Below are positions 6,988 through 17,089 of a stretch of DNA of 64,000 nucleotides, one piece after another (the first letter of the stretch is position 1; every line of letters begins with the position of its first letter). The position numbers and the translations under genes were made by a program. The notes below the pieces were generated by a model. The model was not told the origin of the DNA and made no database searches. It was given only the letters and a program-made list of their open reading frames with translations. The stretch comes from Maricaulaceae bacterium (GTDB lineage Bacteria; Pseudomonadota; Alphaproteobacteria; Caulobacterales; Maricaulaceae): the NCBI GenBank assembly GCA_026126205.1, contig JAHCJP010000002.1, positions 124,001 through 188,000 of the forward strand, given 5' to 3'.

Positions 6988-8556
<1,569 letters not shown>

Positions 8557-8588
8557 GGCGGTCTCTTTCCTGCGTTGGGGCGTGGCGG

Positions 8589-11537
8589 TCAGTCCAGCGC
8601 CTCGGCGATCAGCGCGTCCTGTTCCTGCTTGTGGCGATAGGCGACGCCGGTGGCGGTCGATGCGGCAGCCGGCCGCCCGGCATAGCGGGCGCGGGGATGC
8701 CTGGCCTCGATCTGGCCCAGCACCCATTCCAGGTTCGGCTCCATGAAGGACCAGGCGCCCATGTTCTTCGGCTCTTCCTGACACCAGACCATCTCGGCCT
8801 GCGAAAAGCGTTTCAGTTCGTGCATCAGCGAGCGGGCGGGGATGGGGTAATACTGCTCGACCCGCAACAGGTAGATGTCGTCGATCCCGCGCGTCTCGCG
8901 CGCTTCCAGCAGGTCGTAATAGACCTTGCCGGAACAGATCACCACCCGGCGGATTTTATCATCCGCGACCAGGCCGGTTCCGCCATCTTTCGCGTCGGCG
9001 CCGTCCCACAGCACGCGGTGGAAGGACGAGTCCGGCCCCATGTCGGCGAGGGTGGAGACGCAGCGCTTGTGACGCAGCAGCGATTTCGGCGTCATCACGA
9101 TCAGCGGTTTGCGGAAATTGCGGTGAATCTGCCGCCGCAGGGCGTGAAAATAGTTCGCCGGCGTGGTGCAGTTCACCACCTGCATATTGTCCTGCGCGCA
9201 GGATTGCAGGAAGCGCTCGAGGCGGGCGGAGGAATGCTCCGGCCCCTGGCCCTCGTATCCGTGCGGCAGCAGCATCACCAGCCCCGACATGCGCAGCCAT
9301 TTGCGCTCGCCCGAGGCGATGAACTGGTCGATCAGCACCTGCGCGCCGTTGACGAAGTCGCCGAACTGGGCCTCCCACATCACCAGCGTGTTGGGCGCCG
9401 ACAGCGAATAGCCGTATTCGAAGCCGAGCACGGCCTCTTCCGACAGCATCGAGTCGATCACCTCATACCGCGCTTGATTCTCCGACAAATGGTTGAGGAA
9501 GGTGTGGCGCTCCTCCGTCTCCTGGTCGACGAGGTGGGAATGGCGCTGCGAGAAAGTGCCGCGGCCCGAATCCTGCCCCGACAGGCGCACGGGAAAGCCC
9601 TCGTCCAGCAGTGTGGCGAAGGCCAGGTGCTCCGCCGTGGCCCAGTCGATGCCCTCGCCGGCCTCTATCGCCTCGCGCCGCGCCTCGATCACCCGTTTCA
9701 GCGTGCGGTGGATGCTGTAATTTTCCGGGATCGCGGTCATGCGGCGGCCCAGATCGCGCAGGCGCTCCACATCAACGCCGGTGACGCCGCGGCGCTCGTC
9801 CTCCTCCGGCAGGCCAAGGCCCGACCATTGCCCGTCCAGCCAGTCGGCCTTTTTGGGCTTGAACGCCTTGCCGGCCTCGTACTCGTCGTCGAGATAGGCG
9901 TCGAACTGGCGGGCCATGCCCTCGGCCCCGGCCTCGTCGATCACGCCTTCTTCAATCAGGCGCGCCTGATAGATTTCCCGGGTCGAGGGGTGGTCCTTGA
10001 TCAGCCGGTACATGATCGGCTGGGTGAAGGACGGGTCATCGCCCTCGTTATGGCCGAAGCGGCGATAGCAGAACATGTCGACGACCACGTCCTTGCCGAA
10101 GATCTGCCGGTATTCGGCGGCGATGCGCGCGGCGTGGACCACGGCCTCGGGGTCGTCGCCGTTCACATGGAAGATCGGCGCCTGCACCATCAGCGCCACG
10201 TCGGACGGATAGGGCGATGAGCGCGAATCGCGCGGATTGGTGGTGAAGCCGATCTGGTTATTGACGATGAAGTGGATGGCGCCGCCGGTGCGATGCCCCT
10301 TCAGCCCCGACAGACCGAAGCATTCGGCGACGATGCCCTGACCGGCGAAGGCGGCGTCGCCATGCAGCAGCAGCGGCAGCACCTTCGGAAACGGGTTGTC
10401 GTCGCCCAGACGGCGCAGCTTGGTCTGCTTGGCGCGCGCCTTGCCCAGCACCACCGGGTTCACGGCCTCAAGGTGTGACGGGTTGGCGGTGAGCGACAGA
10501 TGCACCGTATTGCCGTCGAACTCGCGGTCGGACGAGGCGCCGAGATGGTACTTCACGTCGCCGGAGCCGAACTCGTCCTCGCCCTGCGTATTGCCGCCCT
10601 GGAACTCGTGGAAGATCTGGTGATAGGGCTTGCCCATCACCGCGCCCAGCACGTTCAGCCGGCCGCGGTGCGGCATGCCGATGATGATGTCGCTCACCCC
10701 CATGGCGCCGCCGCGCTTGATGATCTGCTCCAGCGCCGGAACCATCGCCTCGCCGCCGTCGAGGCCGAAGCGCTTGGTGCCGGGATAGCGCTTGTGCAGG
10801 AAGCGCTCGAAGGCCTCGGCCTCGACCAGCTTCATCAGGATCGCCGTCTTGCCTTCCGGGGTGAAGGAAATCTCCTTGTCCGGCCCCTCGAAGCGCTCCT
10901 GCAGCCAGGCTTTCTCCTGCGGGTTGGAGATGTGCATGAACTCCACGCCGATGGAGCCGCAATAAGTGCGCCGCAGAATGTCCAGCATCCTGCGGGGCGT
11001 GGCGGTCTCCAGCCCCAGATAGCCGTCGATGAAAATCTCGCGGTCCATCGCCGCGCCGTTGAAGCCGTAGCTGGCGGGGTCCAGCTCCGGCTGCGGGCCG
11101 AAAGTCGCCATGCCCAGCGGGTCCAGCTTCGCGGCCAGATGCCCGCGCATGCGGTAGGCGCGGATCATCATGATGGCGCGGATCGAATCCTGCGTCGCGG
11201 CGCGCACCGCATCCGGGTCCGCGCCCGGCATGCGCCCGGCCACTTTCTTGGGCAGGTCCGGCCCGGCCATCGCCTCCAGCACGCCCAGCGCCTCGGCCAG
11301 TTCGCCGTTCACGGCGCGCGCCGGGCGTTTCCAGCTCGCGCCCTTCGCCGCACGGTCCGCCGCCTCGGCGCTGTCGCCCAGCCCGTCGAAAAAGGCGCGC
11401 CATTCGGCCGAGACCGCATTGGGGTCGCGGGCGTGGATCGCCGCCATCTGCTCGATGAAGCTGGCGTTGCCGCCATACAGGAAGGCAGTGTCGAGGAAGG
11501 CCTGGTTGCGGTTGGTGCGTGACGTGTCGGTCATCAT
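8589..11537 (-). CDS. sucA: 2-oxoglutarate dehydrogenase E1 component
   Basis: This is the thiamine-diphosphate-dependent decarboxylase that commits 2-oxoglutarate to succinyl-CoA. It has 982 residues, typical length. Recognisable segments are the N-terminal E2-binding stretch ([17 protein letters not shown]), the active-site region [13 protein letters not shown], the TPP/Mg site [23 protein letters not shown], and the C-terminal '[14 protein letters not shown]'. It begins with two ATGs (11537 and 11534). It lies between sucD (107 bp upstream) and sucB, as expected for the TCA operon. Confidence 0.97.
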
Positions 11538-11644
11538 GGGTCCGGAGAGGAAAGAATCACATGATTCGCCTTCTGAGGGCGTTCTGCTTGACGATCCATT
11601 TAGAAGCCCGGCGAACGCCGCGCCATATGAACCGGACAGGCGGA

Positions 11645-12556
11645 TCAGGCTTTCAGCAGATCGGCCAGCGTGGCGCCGATGCGCGCCGGGCTGTCCGACA
11701 CCGTGATCCCGGCCGATTTCATCGCCTCTATCTTGTCCTCTGCCCCGCCCTTGCCGCCGGAGATGACGGCCCCAGCATGGCCCATGCGGCGGCCTGGCGG
11801 CGCGGTGCGCCCGGCGATGAAACCGACCACGGGCTTCTTGCGACCCTTCTTCGCCTCGGCCTTCAGGAAGTCCGCAGCCTCTTCCTCGGCAGAGCCGCCG
11901 ATCTCGCCGATCATCACGATGGATCCGGTTTTCGGGTCGCCCAGGAACAGGTCCAGACAGTCGATGAAATTGGTGCCGTTCACCGGGTCGCCGCCGATGC
12001 CGATGCAGGTCGACTGGCCAAGGCCGGCGTCGGTGGTCTGCTTGACGGCTTCATAGGTCAGCGTGCCGGAGCGCGAGACGATGCCGACCGAGCCGGGCTT
12101 GTGGATATGGCCGGGCATGATGCCGATCTTGCATTCGCCCGGCGTGATCACGCCGGGGCAGTTCGGCCCGACCAGGCGCGAGGCCGAGCCGGAAAGCGCG
12201 CGTTTGACCTTGACCATGTCGATCACCGGAACCCCCTCGGTGATGGTCACGATCAGTTCGATGCCAGCGTCGATGGCTTCCAGGATCGCGTCGGCCGCGA
12301 AGGGCGGGGGAACATAGATGACGCTGGCGTTGGCGCCGGTCCTGGCCCGCGCCTCGGCCACGGTGTCGAACACCGGCAGGCCGGCCTTCTTGCCGTCGCC
12401 CAGGTCGCCCTGCCAGCCGGTTCCGCCCTTGCCGGGCGTGACGCCGCCGACCATGGCGGTGCCATAGAGGATCGCCTGTTCGGTGTGGAAGGTGCCGTTC
12501 TTGCCGGTGATACCCTGGCAGATGACTTTGGTGTTTTTGTCGACGAGAACGGACAT
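11645..12556 (-). CDS. sucD: Succinyl-CoA synthetase, alpha subunit
   Basis: Together with SucC it interconverts succinyl-CoA and succinate with substrate-level phosphorylation. It has 303 residues. The N-terminal CoA-binding Rossmann domain includes [19 protein letters not shown] and [15 protein letters not shown]. The phosphohistidine is in the MGHAGAVI segment (around residue 249), preceded by [10 protein letters not shown]. It is unusual in not being adjacent to sucC: about 1.9 kb with five other genes lies between the two subunit genes. Confidence 0.97.
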
Positions 12557-12584
12557 GCGGGATTCCTTGCGGCGGGCGCGGTGT

Positions 12585-13022
12585 TCAGGCCGCAGCCGTC
12601 TTACGCTGCGGCGGGGTTATTTCAAGGGCCTCTATCGCCTCGATGAAGGCGGGCGGCGGCGGCGCGGGGGTTTTCGTGCCCTTGATGGCGTTGACATAGG
12701 TCAGCACCCCCTCGGTCAGCAGCTCCTCGCCGCGGAAGATGGCGAAGGCGAACTCCAGCGAGGTGTTGCCGATGCGCATGCAGCGCACGCCGATGTCGAC
12801 CAGGTCGTCGGCGGCCGCCGGGGCGCGGAAATCGGTGCGGGCGTTGACGATGAACAGCTCCACCATCCCGCCGCCGCTGAAACCGATCTTGCGCAGGTAT
12901 TCCGTCACCGCGACGTCGAAATACAGCAGATAGTTGGCGTTGAAGACGATGCCCTGCGGGTCGCATTCGGCCCAGCGCACCCGCAGCGGATGGAAGAAGG
13001 CGAACTGGTCACGCGCGGTCAT
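12585..13022 (-). CDS. YbgC-like hot-dog acyl-CoA thioesterase
   Basis: From the ATG at 13022 the product has 145 residues. It has the 4-hydroxybenzoyl-CoA thioesterase signature [21 protein letters not shown], with the catalytic Asp at residue 21, and so should hydrolyse short-chain or aromatic acyl-CoAs in the cytoplasm. The start overlaps the stop of the membrane protein upstream as ATGA, indicating translational coupling, and a G-rich Shine-Dalgarno-like sequence precedes it. It lies 28 bp before sucD, so it may be expressed with the TCA genes. It is not beside tol-pal, where the Tol-associated YbgC usually sits, so its substrate is open. Confidence 0.85.
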
Positions 13023-13351
13023 TCCCCACCCCCGGTGAACTTGAAGCCCAGCGCCCCGCCCAGCCAGCCGAACCCGGCGGCGACCCCGGCCAGCAATGGC
13101 CAGACCAGCGCCTCCGCCCCCGGACAGTCTTGCGACGCGGCGCCCTGGCGGCACTCGGCGATCGCCGCCTCGACCGGGCCGACGAGGGCGAGGCTGACCA
13201 GCTGGCCCAGCAGCAGCGGGGCCAGCGCCCCCACCATCAGCGCGAACAGCAGGATGTTCCAGCGCATGGCGCGCAGCCGGGCACGCAGAAACCAGGCGGC
13301 GAACACGCCGATGGCGGCGGGCAGGGCGAAGTAGAGCAGGGTTTCAAGCAC
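13019..13351 (-). CDS. Small hypothetical membrane protein
   Basis: The most plausible start is the GTG at 13351, giving 110 residues; the open frame extends further upstream but only across vapC. The sequence begins with a hydrophobic helix (LLYFALPAAIGVFAAWFL), followed by basic residues (RARLRAMR). A second helix follows (ILLFALMVGALAPLLLGQLVSLAL), and a third, Gly/Ala-rich segment lies near the C-terminus. Two cysteines (ECRQGAASQDC) lie between helices 2 and 3. No family was recognised. It is coupled by ATGA overlap to the thioesterase. The lack of a Shine-Dalgarno sequence keeps the start uncertain. Confidence 0.6.
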   Translation of the reverse strand: MLETLLYFALPAAIGVFAAWFLRARLRAMRWNILLFALMVGALAPLLLGQLVSLALVGPVEAAIAECRQGAASQDCPGAEALVWPLLAGVAAGFGWLGGALGFKFTGGGE

Positions 13352-13365
13352 GGGGCGGACCGCAG

Positions 13366-13776
13366 TTACAGGAACGGATTGACGGCGCGGACCGGACCAT
13401 AGCTCTGCCCGTGCCCGAGGTCTTCGGTATACAGCGTCTCCGCGCCAAGGCGCTCGGCCGCTGCGACGATGGCTGCGTCGTAATAGGAAATCTTGTGGCG
13501 CCGGGAAAGCCGTATCGCTTCTCTCACCAGCAGATCGTCCAGCGGCTGGCATGTGTGTTCGGCCAGGCGCTCAATCCATTCCAGCGCGGCGCGCGGGGAA
13601 AGCCGATGTTCGGCCTTTCTGACGGCGACGGCGTAAAATTCCTGCAGGACCTGCGCCGACAGGGTGAAATCAGCGGCGATGATCCCCATCGCCCGCGTCT
13701 TCTTCGAAGCCTCCTGCGGGCTCCGCGACGCCGCGTAGATCAGGATGTTGGTGTCCACGAAGGGAGGGGCGGTCAT
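13366..13776 (-). CDS. vapC: PIN-domain ribonuclease toxin (VapC-like)
   Basis: The 136-residue protein has the PIN nuclease layout. It begins FVDTNILIYAA (D8), has a middle acidic residue E46 (SAQVLQEFYAV), D100 in SYYDAAIVAAAERLGAE, and a C-terminal acidic pair E118/D119 (LYTEDLGHGQ). VapC toxins are Mg-dependent RNases that often cut tRNA or rRNA. GAGGACC seven bases before the ATG serves as a ribosome-binding site inside the antitoxin gene. The gene lies inside the sucC-sucD interval on the same strand. All acidic residues are intact, so it should be active. Confidence 0.9.
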   Translation of the reverse strand: MTAPPFVDTNILIYAASRSPQEASKKTRAMGIIAADFTLSAQVLQEFYAVAVRKAEHRLSPRAALEWIERLAEHTCQPLDDLLVREAIRLSRRHKISYYDAAIVAAAERLGAETLYTEDLGHGQSYGPVRAVNPFL

Positions 13777-14002
13777 AAAGGTCCTCGCGGTTCCATTTCC
13801 AGCCGCCGGTGTCGAACGTGTAATCCTCCGACCGCGCCATCTCAGCCAGTTCGCGCCGGGCCTGCGCCGCCCGGTCGTGCCGGCTTGTCAGGCGGGTGAG
13901 GTGTTCCCGGATCAGGGCGTTGACGGTCGTGCCCTGCGCCGCCGCGAAGGCGCGCGCCTTCGCCAGCAGGCGGGCGTCGATGCGAAGCGTAAGATTGCCC
14001 AT
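13670..14002 (-). CDS. Ribbon-helix-helix antitoxin of the PIN toxin, with C-terminal overprinted extension
   Basis: From the ATG at 14002 the protein has 110 residues. Residues 1-45 (GNLTLRIDARLLAKARAFA...TTVNALIREHLTRL) form a ribbon-helix-helix DNA-binding domain. The segment GGWKWNREDLYD (about 66-77) is the usual toxin-binding tail of this antitoxin type. Normally the gene stops about there. Here no stop occurs and the frame runs 107 bp into vapC, adding about 33 residues of low-confidence sequence. A start at 14026 is open but lies across the likely promoter. An operator-like palindrome sits immediately upstream, fitting autorepression. Confidence 0.85.
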   Translation of the reverse strand: MGNLTLRIDARLLAKARAFAAAQGTTVNALIREHLTRLTSRHDRAAQARRELAEMARSEDYTFDTGGWKWNREDLYDRPSLRGHQHPDLRGVAEPAGGFEEDAGDGDHRR

Positions 14003-14036
14003 ACGCACATAATATGTGCAACGCACGGGTTTTCAA
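14003..14036 (-). promoter_or_regulatory. Promoter/operator of the toxin-antitoxin pair, probably leaderless
   Basis: On the minus strand TTGAAA (14036-14031) and TATTAT (14014-14009) are separated by 16 bp, a good sigma70-type promoter. The -10 box lies inside a perfect 15 bp palindrome, GCACATAATATGTGC (14005-14019), a likely antitoxin operator. Only six bases separate the -10 box from the antitoxin ATG at 14002. Transcription would therefore start at or next to the start codon, giving a leaderless mRNA. Confidence 0.65.
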
Positions 14037-14437
14037 TCGCCGGCAGGCGGGAAGACTTCGAGCGCGCAATGGCCCGTTGCGGGGTCAAGATGGGTGACGC
14101 GCCAGCGGAACCCTTGTCTTTCCTCGGGCTTCCAGGGGTGTGCGCTGTCAACGCCGGTCTTGGGGTTTCCCTTTACAATCACGACGTCCACCCAACCATC
14201 GAACGCGTCCAAGGCGTGTTGCAGATGGTCGATACGCTTTCTGTTGCCGGGCTTTCGCTCCCAGTCCGGAAGTGGGTCGGCGCATGTGCGCGAATCGAAA
14301 TACGGGCGGCCTTGTTGCCAGGCGAGTTCTTTTTCCCACAGGCTGACGCAGACGCCGTGGTCCGCAGTCGCGGTCCAGTCGGTTCGTGGAGCCGCCAAAT
14401 GGTACCCTAGGGACTGAAACGCCTCGCCGTATTGCAT
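14033..14437 (-). CDS. Hypothetical protein, 134 aa, between sucC and the toxin-antitoxin pair
   Basis: I do not recognise this protein. From the ATG at 14437 it has 134 residues, is soluble and rich in Trp and Asp, and starts MQYGEAFQSLGYHLAAPRTD. It contains GVCVSLWEKELAWQQGRPYFDSR, a basic segment KPGNRKRIDHLQHALDAF, a strand-like WVDVVIVKG, and ends FRWRVTHLDPATGHCALEVFPPAGD. The C-terminal ~60 residues look like a compact beta-rich domain. Codon use resembles its neighbours, but GC is slightly lower than in sucC. It follows sucC by 26 bp, so it is probably read from the sucC promoter. Its stop lies just upstream of the antitoxin promoter. Confidence 0.65.
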   Translation of the reverse strand: MQYGEAFQSLGYHLAAPRTDWTATADHGVCVSLWEKELAWQQGRPYFDSRTCADPLPDWERKPGNRKRIDHLQHALDAFDGWVDVVIVKGNPKTGVDSAHPWKPEERQGFRWRVTHLDPATGHCALEVFPPAGD

Positions 14438-14463
14438 GCCCAACGGTCCTTTTAGCGGCGCGC

Positions 14464-15657
<1,194 letters not shown>

Positions 15658-15701
15658 GGATCGGGTCTCGCCGCGCTGGCAGGGTGGGAAGGACGGCCCC
15701 G

Positions 15702-15729
15702 CTTATAACACCGCGCCGCAGGCGCGCAA
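15702..15729 (-). promoter_or_regulatory. Candidate sigma70 promoter of the sucC operon
   Basis: On the minus strand TTGCGC (15729-15724) and TATAAG (15707-15702) are separated by 16 bp. The predicted transcript would start near 15695 with a leader of about 38 nt before the sucC ATG at 15657. This is the only AT-rich patch in the sucC upstream region. Confidence 0.5.
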
Positions 15730-15751
15730 CGCGTCTGGGCCGGGCCCGCCG

Positions 15752-17089
15752 TCAGCGGCGCGGCGACCCGTCATCCTCGCCGGAATCCCCGGGCCATCCA
15801 TCGTCGCCGGCGTTTTCAGCCGGCTCATCGCCATCATCGACAAGCGCAGCGGAAGTAGCGTGCAGATTGACGAACTCCTCGCGCTCCTCCGGCATGGGCG
15901 CCGGGCGCTCCTTGCTGCGCCACAGCATCAGCGCGGTCAGCGCAACGGCGCTGACGCCGGCGAACAGGAACACGCCGCGCGCGCCCAGCGGGCTGGCGAA
16001 AAACGCGCCGGCGATCACCGGGCCGATCACCGAGCCCGCCGCCCACACCATCAGCATGCCCGACGCCATCGCCGGCAGGTTCTCCAGCGCCGAGCGGTCG
16101 GCCGCATGAGCGACCGCGATGGCGTAGAAGCCCAGCGAGCAGGCGCCCCACAGCGAGATCAGGACCACGCCCAGCGCCACCCCCGGCCCCGGCAGCAGCG
16201 CCAGCAGCAGCGCCAGCGCGCCGGAAGCCGCGGCTAGCCCGGCGACCACCAGCCGCCGGTCAAGGCTGTCCGATATCTTGCCCGCCGGCCATTGCGCGGC
16301 CATTGAGGCGGCGTAGATGCCGGCCATCACCAGCGCCGCGGCGCCGGCCCCAGCGCCGATGACCGCGCCCACAGCCTCATCGGCGGCGTTCTCCGGCGCC
16401 GCGCCGGCCAGCCCCTCGGCCCAGATCGGCACGAAGGCCAGAACGCCGGTGTTGATAAGCCCGGCGGCGAACACCGCCGCCACCGCGGCGGGGGCGATGC
16501 CCAACAGGTGCGTGATCGACACTCGCGCAGCGCTGGGCGGGCGCGGCTGCTGGCGCCGCGTCGCGGTGATCGGCGCCAGCGCCAGCGCGACGAAGGCGCC
16601 GGCGATGATGAAGCTCTTGGTCAGGTCGATGCCCGGCAGCGCGATCAGGAACGGGCCGACGATCAGCCCGGCGCGGCCGAGAATCTGGTAGACGGCGATC
16701 ACCGCGCCGCGGCGTTCGGATGGCGTGGCGTCGGCGATCCAGCTTTCGGCGACCGCGAACAGCACCGCATTGCAGACGCCGAAGCCGAACCGCGCCACGG
16801 ACCAGCCAGCCTCGGAGGTGTCGAGCCCCAGGAACAGGGTCAGCGCCGCCGCCACGCCCGCGAAGGCGGCGAAGGCGCGGATATGGCCGATGGCCCGGAT
16901 CGCGGAAGGCGCCATCCAGGCGCCGAACATGAAGCCCGCCGCATAGGCCGCCGCCACCGCGCCAATCACCAGCCCGGACCAGCCCTCTCCCGCCATCGCC
17001 AGCGGCAGGGCGACGCCCAGCGCGCCGGTGGCCACCTGCAGCAGGGCGACCGACAGCATCAGCGCGGCGACATTGCGGTAGAAGATCAC
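15752..17089 (-). CDS. MFS transporter (YcaD/DHA-like)
   Basis: With a GTG start at 17089 the protein has 445 residues and about 12 hydrophobic segments, typical of a major facilitator superfamily permease of the inner membrane. Helix 1 is VAALMLSVALLQVATGALGV. A motif-A-like loop is near FGAWMAPSAIRAIGHIRAFA, and 'VAESWIADATPSERRGAVIAVYQ' resembles YcaD-type transporters. A hydrophilic acidic C-terminal tail follows the last helix (PAPMPEEREEFVNLHA...). The substrate cannot be inferred. The open frame continues upstream of 17089, but that part lacks hydrophobic character and runs over the divergent YceI-like gene. Confidence 0.8.
   Translation of the reverse strand: MIFYRNVAALMLSVALLQVATGALGVALPLAMAGEGWSGLVIGAVAAAYAAGFMFGAWMAPSAIRAIGHIRAFAAFAGVAAALTLFLGLDTSEAGWSVARFGFGVCNAVLFAVAESWIADATPSERRGAVIAVYQILGRAGLIVGPFLIALPGIDLTKSFIIAGAFVALALAPITATRRQQPRPPSAARVSITHLLGIAPAAVAAVFAAGLINTGVLAFVPIWAEGLAGAAPENAADEAVGAVIGAGAGAAALVMAGIYAASMAAQWPAGKISDSLDRRLVVAGLAAASGALALLLALLPGPGVALGVVLISLWGACSLGFYAIAVAHAADRSALENLPAMASGMLMVWAAGSVIGPVIAGAFFASPLGARGVFLFAGVSAVALTALMLWRSKERPAPMPEEREEFVNLHATSAALVDDGDEPAENAGDDGWPGDSGEDDGSPRR

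Follow-up and report, generated by a model that had tools for sequence, protein, structure and literature searches.

A VapBC toxin-antitoxin lineage that recurs at the sucC/sucD junction of Alphaproteobacteria

In the window (the whole 64,000-nucleotide stretch of DNA analyzed here), the genes for the beta and alpha subunits of succinyl-CoA synthetase, sucC and sucD, are not neighbors; between them lies, among other genes, a pair encoding an RHH antitoxin (VapB) and a predicted PIN-domain toxin (VapC). Close relatives of this pair recur at the sucC/sucD junction in other Alphaproteobacteria, nearly always directly 5' of sucD, and because of this recurrence we read the pair as a site-faithful passenger: probably a horizontally exchanged type II toxin-antitoxin (TA) module that is faithful to one junction of a core operon and would bring with it an autoregulated promoter from which sucD is read. 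We regard the gene arrangement and the fact that it recurs at this junction as solid observations.

Alphaproteobacterial mdh/sucCDAB operons have the order sucC-sucD-sucA-sucB, usually with no genes between sucC and sucD. The window keeps this order but not the adjacency. On the minus strand it contains, in order, sucC (14464..15657; NCBIfam PRK00696, 586.6 bits), orf1 (14033..14437; 134 aa, matching neither Pfam nor NCBIfam and without an assigned family), vapB (13670..14002), vapC (13366..13776; 136 aa, Pfam PF01850, 58.8 bits where the cut-off is 23.6), a gene for a small membrane protein (13019..13351; 110 aa, GTG start), an acyl-CoA thioesterase gene of the 4HBT, YbgC/FadM type (12585..13022; TIGR00051, 72.6 bits), sucD (11645..12556; PRK05678, 460.7 bits), sucA for 2-oxoglutarate dehydrogenase E1 (8589..11537; PRK09404, 1367.5 bits), and sucB for E2 (longest open reading frame 6988..8784; PRK05704, 705.1 bits). 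The first-pass annotation had placed a TA pair and three other genes between sucC and sucD on one strand, and the gene calls and family matches confirm this. The genes are tightly packed: vapC is followed after 14 nt by the membrane gene, which overlaps the thioesterase gene by 4 nt, and 28 nt separate the latter from sucD, so that vapC and sucD lie 809 nt apart with two genes between them. The 2.54-Mb source genome encodes four PIN genes at E <= 0.001, the window vapC among them.

That sucC and sucD are normally adjacent, as the same annotation assumed, is borne out by 39 SucD loci from the class, taken as roughly every fourth among the matches listed: sucC lies 3 to 18 nt upstream in 37 of them; of the other two, one shows a gap of 935 nt and the other lacks an upstream sucC. 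The family of the window departs from this tight spacing. Its sucC/sucD gaps, with core genes on both sides and diverse cargo ORFs inside, exceed 180 nt in 45 of the 96 loci that have sucD downstream (a set that excludes the window and counts genome G001 twice).

The pair has the features of VapBC type II systems, namely a gene for an RHH antitoxin whose end overlaps the PIN toxin gene, retained acidic residues, and a palindrome at the promoter. All 19 aligned VapC toxins match PF01850. The window copy has D8, E46, D100, and E118, which we take to be the catalytic PIN residues; in the alignment (A1), D8, E46, and E118 are invariant in all 19 sequences and D100 is kept in at least 90% of them. 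The assignment of the antitoxin to the RHH class is weaker than the first-pass annotation implied, since the window copy itself scores just below the cut-off for its best Pfam match (DUF6364, 27.0 versus 27.3), but 17 of 18 aligned relatives match DUF6364 (E <= 0.01), with RHH_1 found in 7 and VapB_antitoxin in 4 of these sequences. The homologous part of VapB extends to about position 13766, and the frame, with no stop after the usual REDLYDR-like end, stays open to 13670, adding 34 residues and giving a 107-nt overlap with vapC, far larger than in most relatives. The only solved chain matching the VapC profile (A1) is PcrIIC1 (8wmm, E = 1.3e-9), presumably a pro-CRISPR factor, and an 83-aa ORF directly 5' of vapB in locus L070 (4861-4613, minus strand) appears by eye to encode another RHH-type protein. 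What sets this lineage apart from other VapBC type II systems is its almost exclusive residence at one junction of a core TCA operon, directly 5' of sucD. Another alphaproteobacterial VapBC, VapBC10 of Sinorhizobium (S.) meliloti, cuts two tRNA-Ser species, and the passages on it in PMC10945364 mention no suc linkage. Among the papers listed by PMC searches, we found nothing on vapBC within sucCD.

Within the family of the window, a VapC match at E <= 0.001 is found in 23 of 137 genomes and is strong (E < 1e-15) in 19. All 19 strong relatives lie 5' of sucD: in 16 loci sucC is on the other side, and in G011, G106, and G114 there is no adjacent sucC; the weaker matches are not near sucC wherever both places are known. 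The vapC stop is 3 to 24 nt from sucD in 18 of the 19 (two read by eye; the distance in L047 is about 9 nt from the sequence, the figure of 281 nt being due to a split SucD match), with the window as the exception. In G106 and G114, vapBC-sucD follows an ORF resembling an ECF sigma factor, and in G011 one resembling ubiE (by eye). The sucC gene of these three genomes lies 5' of a gene that by eye resembles ubiB, elsewhere or on another contig; the separation (L040, L083-L087) seems to reflect a rearrangement at the ubiE/ubiB junction, in which vapBC stayed with sucD. Four genera of the family (g5, g8, g11, and g14) contain carriers of the module beside noncarriers with clean 4- to 11-nt sucC/sucD gaps, which shows that a genome can lack the module with no visible ill effect.

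The same address is found beyond the family. Genome contigs were scanned with the 19-row VapC alignment, which gave 400 relatives; in the best 80 of these, suc genes are present in the flank of 60. By title, 59 of these 60 loci belong to Alphaproteobacteria or lower taxa within them, including Mesorhizobium, Rhodomicrobium, Methyloceanibacter, Aurantimonas, Jiella, Fulvimarina, Devosia, Brevundimonas, and others, and one is listed just as "bacterium"; the 20 unlinked loci among the best 80 are titled Acidobacteria, Verrucomicrobia, Planctomycetes, or Gammaproteobacteria, and none is alphaproteobacterial. VapC matches are present in 41 of 121 Brevundimonas genomes at E <= 1e-10, 32 of those at E <= 9.1e-55, and all 30 loci examined are at the sucC/sucD junction (29 with sucD seen, and L281 with sucC only). 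Among 146 Mesorhizobium genomes, 29 have a match at E <= 1e-30, every one at this junction, and 18 of these 29 loci (L349-L366) carry a second, clearly divergent vapC lineage. Each of 16 named linked genomes has a single VapC copy at E <= 2.6e-47. These counts share some genomes between samples, and the VapC queries came from members at the suc locus, so the ranking favors suc-linked members.

Position within the gap is polarized. The vapC stop is 2 to 95 nt from sucD in 55 of 59 loci measured; at the family, Brevundimonas, and Mesorhizobium loci the distance is usually 2 to 46 nt. Of 79 nonfamily loci in which both flanks are present, 57 have a spacing above 250 nt from sucC to vapB (with the vapB start set at 240 nt 5' of vapC), compared with 4 that have such a spacing from vapC to sucD. 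There are also 17 compact nonfamily loci in which sucC and vapB are at most 85 nt apart.

An even sample of the class shows the limits of this spread. A related PIN gene (E <= 1e-10) is found in 35 of 289 genomes; among 30 loci examined, the window alone is next to suc, the other 29 having no suc gene within 1.5 kb, so that the suc-linked module is seen in a single genome of the 289, that of the window itself. The arrangement is thus confined to some lineages, recurrent there and absent in most.

Closer to the window, SucC is present in 39 of 40 relatives examined, and eight loci from seven congeners have nothing in the gap except the genes for the membrane protein and the thioesterase. Among the congeners compared, orf1-vapB-vapC is confined to the species of the window, and the other two genes are genus-wide. 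Since all eight congeneric loci keep these two genes without it, orf1-vapBC appears to be a recent local arrival. In one congener (L038, genome G007), sucC and sucD are each split over frames, perhaps through sequencing errors. The first-pass annotation had proposed that finding the same gap without the toxin in close relatives would point to a neutral insertion. All seven congeners do have such a gap, but recurrence of the module lineage at this junction across several families speaks for something more than neutral, and a simple local neutral insertion as the whole story was dropped after the wider counts.

The history of the module was examined with a VapC tree of 124 rows and 141 columns, many forks of which are unresolved (L206, L223, and L230 were left out as duplicates and L216 and L237 as fragments; the second Mesorhizobium lineage is outside this tree). 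The suc-linked label requires 4 changes on the tree versus a mean of 38 after shuffling, and none of 500 shuffles gave so low a number. All 77 linked rows fall in one starred clade of 96, the 19 other members of which are nonalphaproteobacterial copies. Unlinked alphaproteobacterial copies lie outside this clade, and organisms are mixed inside it. A single clade for the family of the window (f1) is rejected (p-AU 0.0039, and 0.0011 in a 38-row test), as is a single clade for genus g5 (p-AU 9e-14, 38 chosen rows). A SucD tree, which is a quick tree, not clean for the family and with one long odd row, groups L070/L072/L079/L082, L073/L077, and L084/L085, and the VapCs of these loci belong to different deep lineages; in genus g5, sister SucDs carry different vapC lineages. 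Because the VapC phylogeny conflicts with both the organism and the SucD groupings, modules appear to have been exchanged into one same site, a conclusion that we consider well supported.

Hotspots of horizontal transfer between core genes that lack mobile elements and recombine at the flanking core genes are described (PMC5635113), and the sucC/sucD gap resembles them in its core flanks, high cargo turnover, and absence of mobile-element genes. Recombination through the flanks would be the simplest route and fits that model. Over the final 150 nt of sucC, the similarity among carriers from two genera is 84%, compared with 78% for carriers and noncarriers of one genus, which is at most a weak hint of flank recombination and may be shared descent. 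Other vehicles were sought. Transposase or integrase families are absent from the 45 gap ORFs, and no flanking direct repeat resembling a target duplication was seen. Searches for a plasmid vehicle returned 127 plasmid records, of which the 15 examined are 37 to 41% identical, several with AbrB-type partners. No phage record was found, and none of 8 weak relatives on viral contigs is near suc. One contig of a viral collection (L330) encodes a related pair of RHH and PIN proteins (49% identity), which is not near suc genes.

The other cargo of the gap is heterogeneous. Only 4 genomes of the 137 in the family have a relative of orf1, always 12 to 30 nt 3' of sucC. The structure model of orf1 is confident (mean pLDDT, 84.8) and gave no Foldseek match at E <= 0.001; VIA-align ranked SRA domains first, with Z scores from 6.5 to 5.0, below the convincing level, as a Z score under 8 may reflect merely a common fold arrangement. 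A resemblance to PUA/SRA-type barrels is therefore only tentatively suggested. The 45 gap ORFs include 8 weak Thioredoxin matches, 2 DUF2188 (PADLOC PDC-S16), 2 DUF6804, 1 Sulfotransfer_2, and 1 PDC-S42. The DUF2188 genes, candidates for PDC-S16 in PADLOC, share the sucC/sucD gap with vapBC in L072 and L073. PADLOC gave no match for at least 42 of the 45 gap ORFs or for orf1, vapB, vapC, the membrane gene, and the thioesterase gene of the window. Many other genera of the family have a relative of the small membrane protein directly 5' of sucC (L042, L046, L048, L072, L073, L078, L090, L094, and others), unlike the genus of the window, where the gene is 3' of sucC.

A promoter-like site, TTGAAA-16-TATTAT (14009..14036, minus strand), lies 5' of vapB and is the only sigma-70-like match in 11500-15900, where shuffled sequences lead one to expect 0.6. 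Its -10 element lies in a palindrome, GCACATATTATGTGC (14005..14019, minus strand), which ends 2 nt 5' of the vapB start and is a putative VapB operator; the general type of the palindrome 5' of vapB is CACAGTTACACATATACTGTG. A simple core motif of this palindrome is present 5' of vapB in 17 of 19 family loci, compared with 8 of 323 control windows; outside the family, 86 of 88 suc-linked loci have it, versus 50 of 1,015 controls; a sigma-70-like site accompanies vapB in 23 of these 88 loci versus 2 of the 1,015 controls. The motif also precedes 15 of 17 unlinked vapB copies, and since it is as frequent there, it is native to the TA module rather than evolved for suc. The same region has five terminator-like sites, close to the shuffle expectation (mean, 3.0; standard deviation, 1.8); two lie on the minus strand, within the membrane gene and sucD. 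The earlier interpretation is thus supported in part: a promoter-like site in a conserved palindrome is present 5' of vapB, and since the genes are so tightly packed, transcription from it should extend to sucD. The other effects that were considered, namely a toxin coupled to TCA expression, a costly loss of the module, and a changed SucC:SucD ratio, are hypothetical.

These data can be accommodated by several readings. It is possible, though in our view doubtful, that vapBC is a purely selfish or neutral passenger, which persists by addiction at a landing site that is tolerated and reached through conserved flanks, with no effect on suc. The absence of the module from congeners and from many sister species with clean 4- to 11-nt gaps would agree with this, as would a gap that accepts many unrelated small genes (45 ORFs), a promoter motif native to the module, and the existence of mobile-element-free hotspots with recombining core flanks (PMC5635113). 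Harder to reconcile with neutrality are the strong polarity, with other cargo 5' of vapB in 57 and between vapC and sucD in 4 of 79 loci, and the retention of vapBC beside sucD where sucC has left; a neutral site also gives no reason for the lack of related copies at other places in these genomes. The opposite extreme, a domesticated regulator in which VapBC tunes sucD-sucAB transcription by conditional cooperativity, for example raising it when starvation degrades VapB, draws on the conserved promoter-operator, the 2 to 46 nt between vapC and sucD, and the three genomes without an adjacent sucC in which vapBC heads the sucD-sucA run. We regard it as unlikely, given that the module is patchily distributed and has been replaced by divergent lineages, which does not suit a constant regulatory role, and that sucC normally precedes the module and would read through it.

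More improbable still is that the gap is a small phage-defense or accessory hotspot inside the operon with vapBC as one type of cargo. The two PDC-S16 candidates in L072 and L073, the PDC-S42 match, and the likeness of the orf1 model to SRA domains of modification-dependent nucleases (Z = 6.5) point that way, against which stand the lack of PADLOC matches for the five genes of the window's gap and for at least 42 of the 45 gap ORFs, and a Z score in the range (under 8) that a common fold arrangement may give. Vertical inheritance from an alphaproteobacterial ancestor followed by many losses would account for a site and orientation that are always the same, yet it is very improbable in view of the 3- to 18-nt spacing of sucC and sucD in 37 of 39 class loci and of the AU tests, which reject single-clade trees for the family of the window and for genus g5.

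On the reading that we favor, a site-faithful exchanged TA module, a VapBC lineage would be resident in Alphaproteobacteria at the sucC/sucD junction and would move between species to the same place. Incoming DNA would recombine via sucC and sucD, the conserved genes on either side, so that the module could be swapped in or out without an integrase of its own. In the window, orf1 and vapBC would have come recently between sucC and the older, genus-wide membrane and thioesterase genes. The module would bring a near-leaderless promoter-operator directly 5' of vapB, presumably repressed by VapB or VapBC, and with it the suc operon would gain an internal autoregulated promoter reading into sucD-sucA-sucB. 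Removal of vapB with vapC kept should be toxic. A bolder form of this proposal, which we hold only tentatively, is that the TA lineage is specialized on this one junction, is exchanged among Alphaproteobacteria by recombination in sucC and sucD, and leaves sucD-sucA-sucB partly dependent on a VapB-controlled promoter.

Why chromosomal TA modules persist is a long-standing open question. The lineage described here has one repeated address, in an operon where the two genes flanking it encode one enzyme, and the exchange hotspot is located inside the operon and not at its edge. Natural pairs of sister species with and without the module, for example in Brevundimonas, in Mesorhizobium, and in the genus of the window, let addiction, regulatory coupling, and neutral hitchhiking be distinguished in strains that are culturable and nonpathogenic. 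If the bolder proposal is true, the state of a toxin, the balance of the succinyl-CoA synthetase subunits, and the supply of 2-oxoglutarate dehydrogenase would be linked in the carriers.
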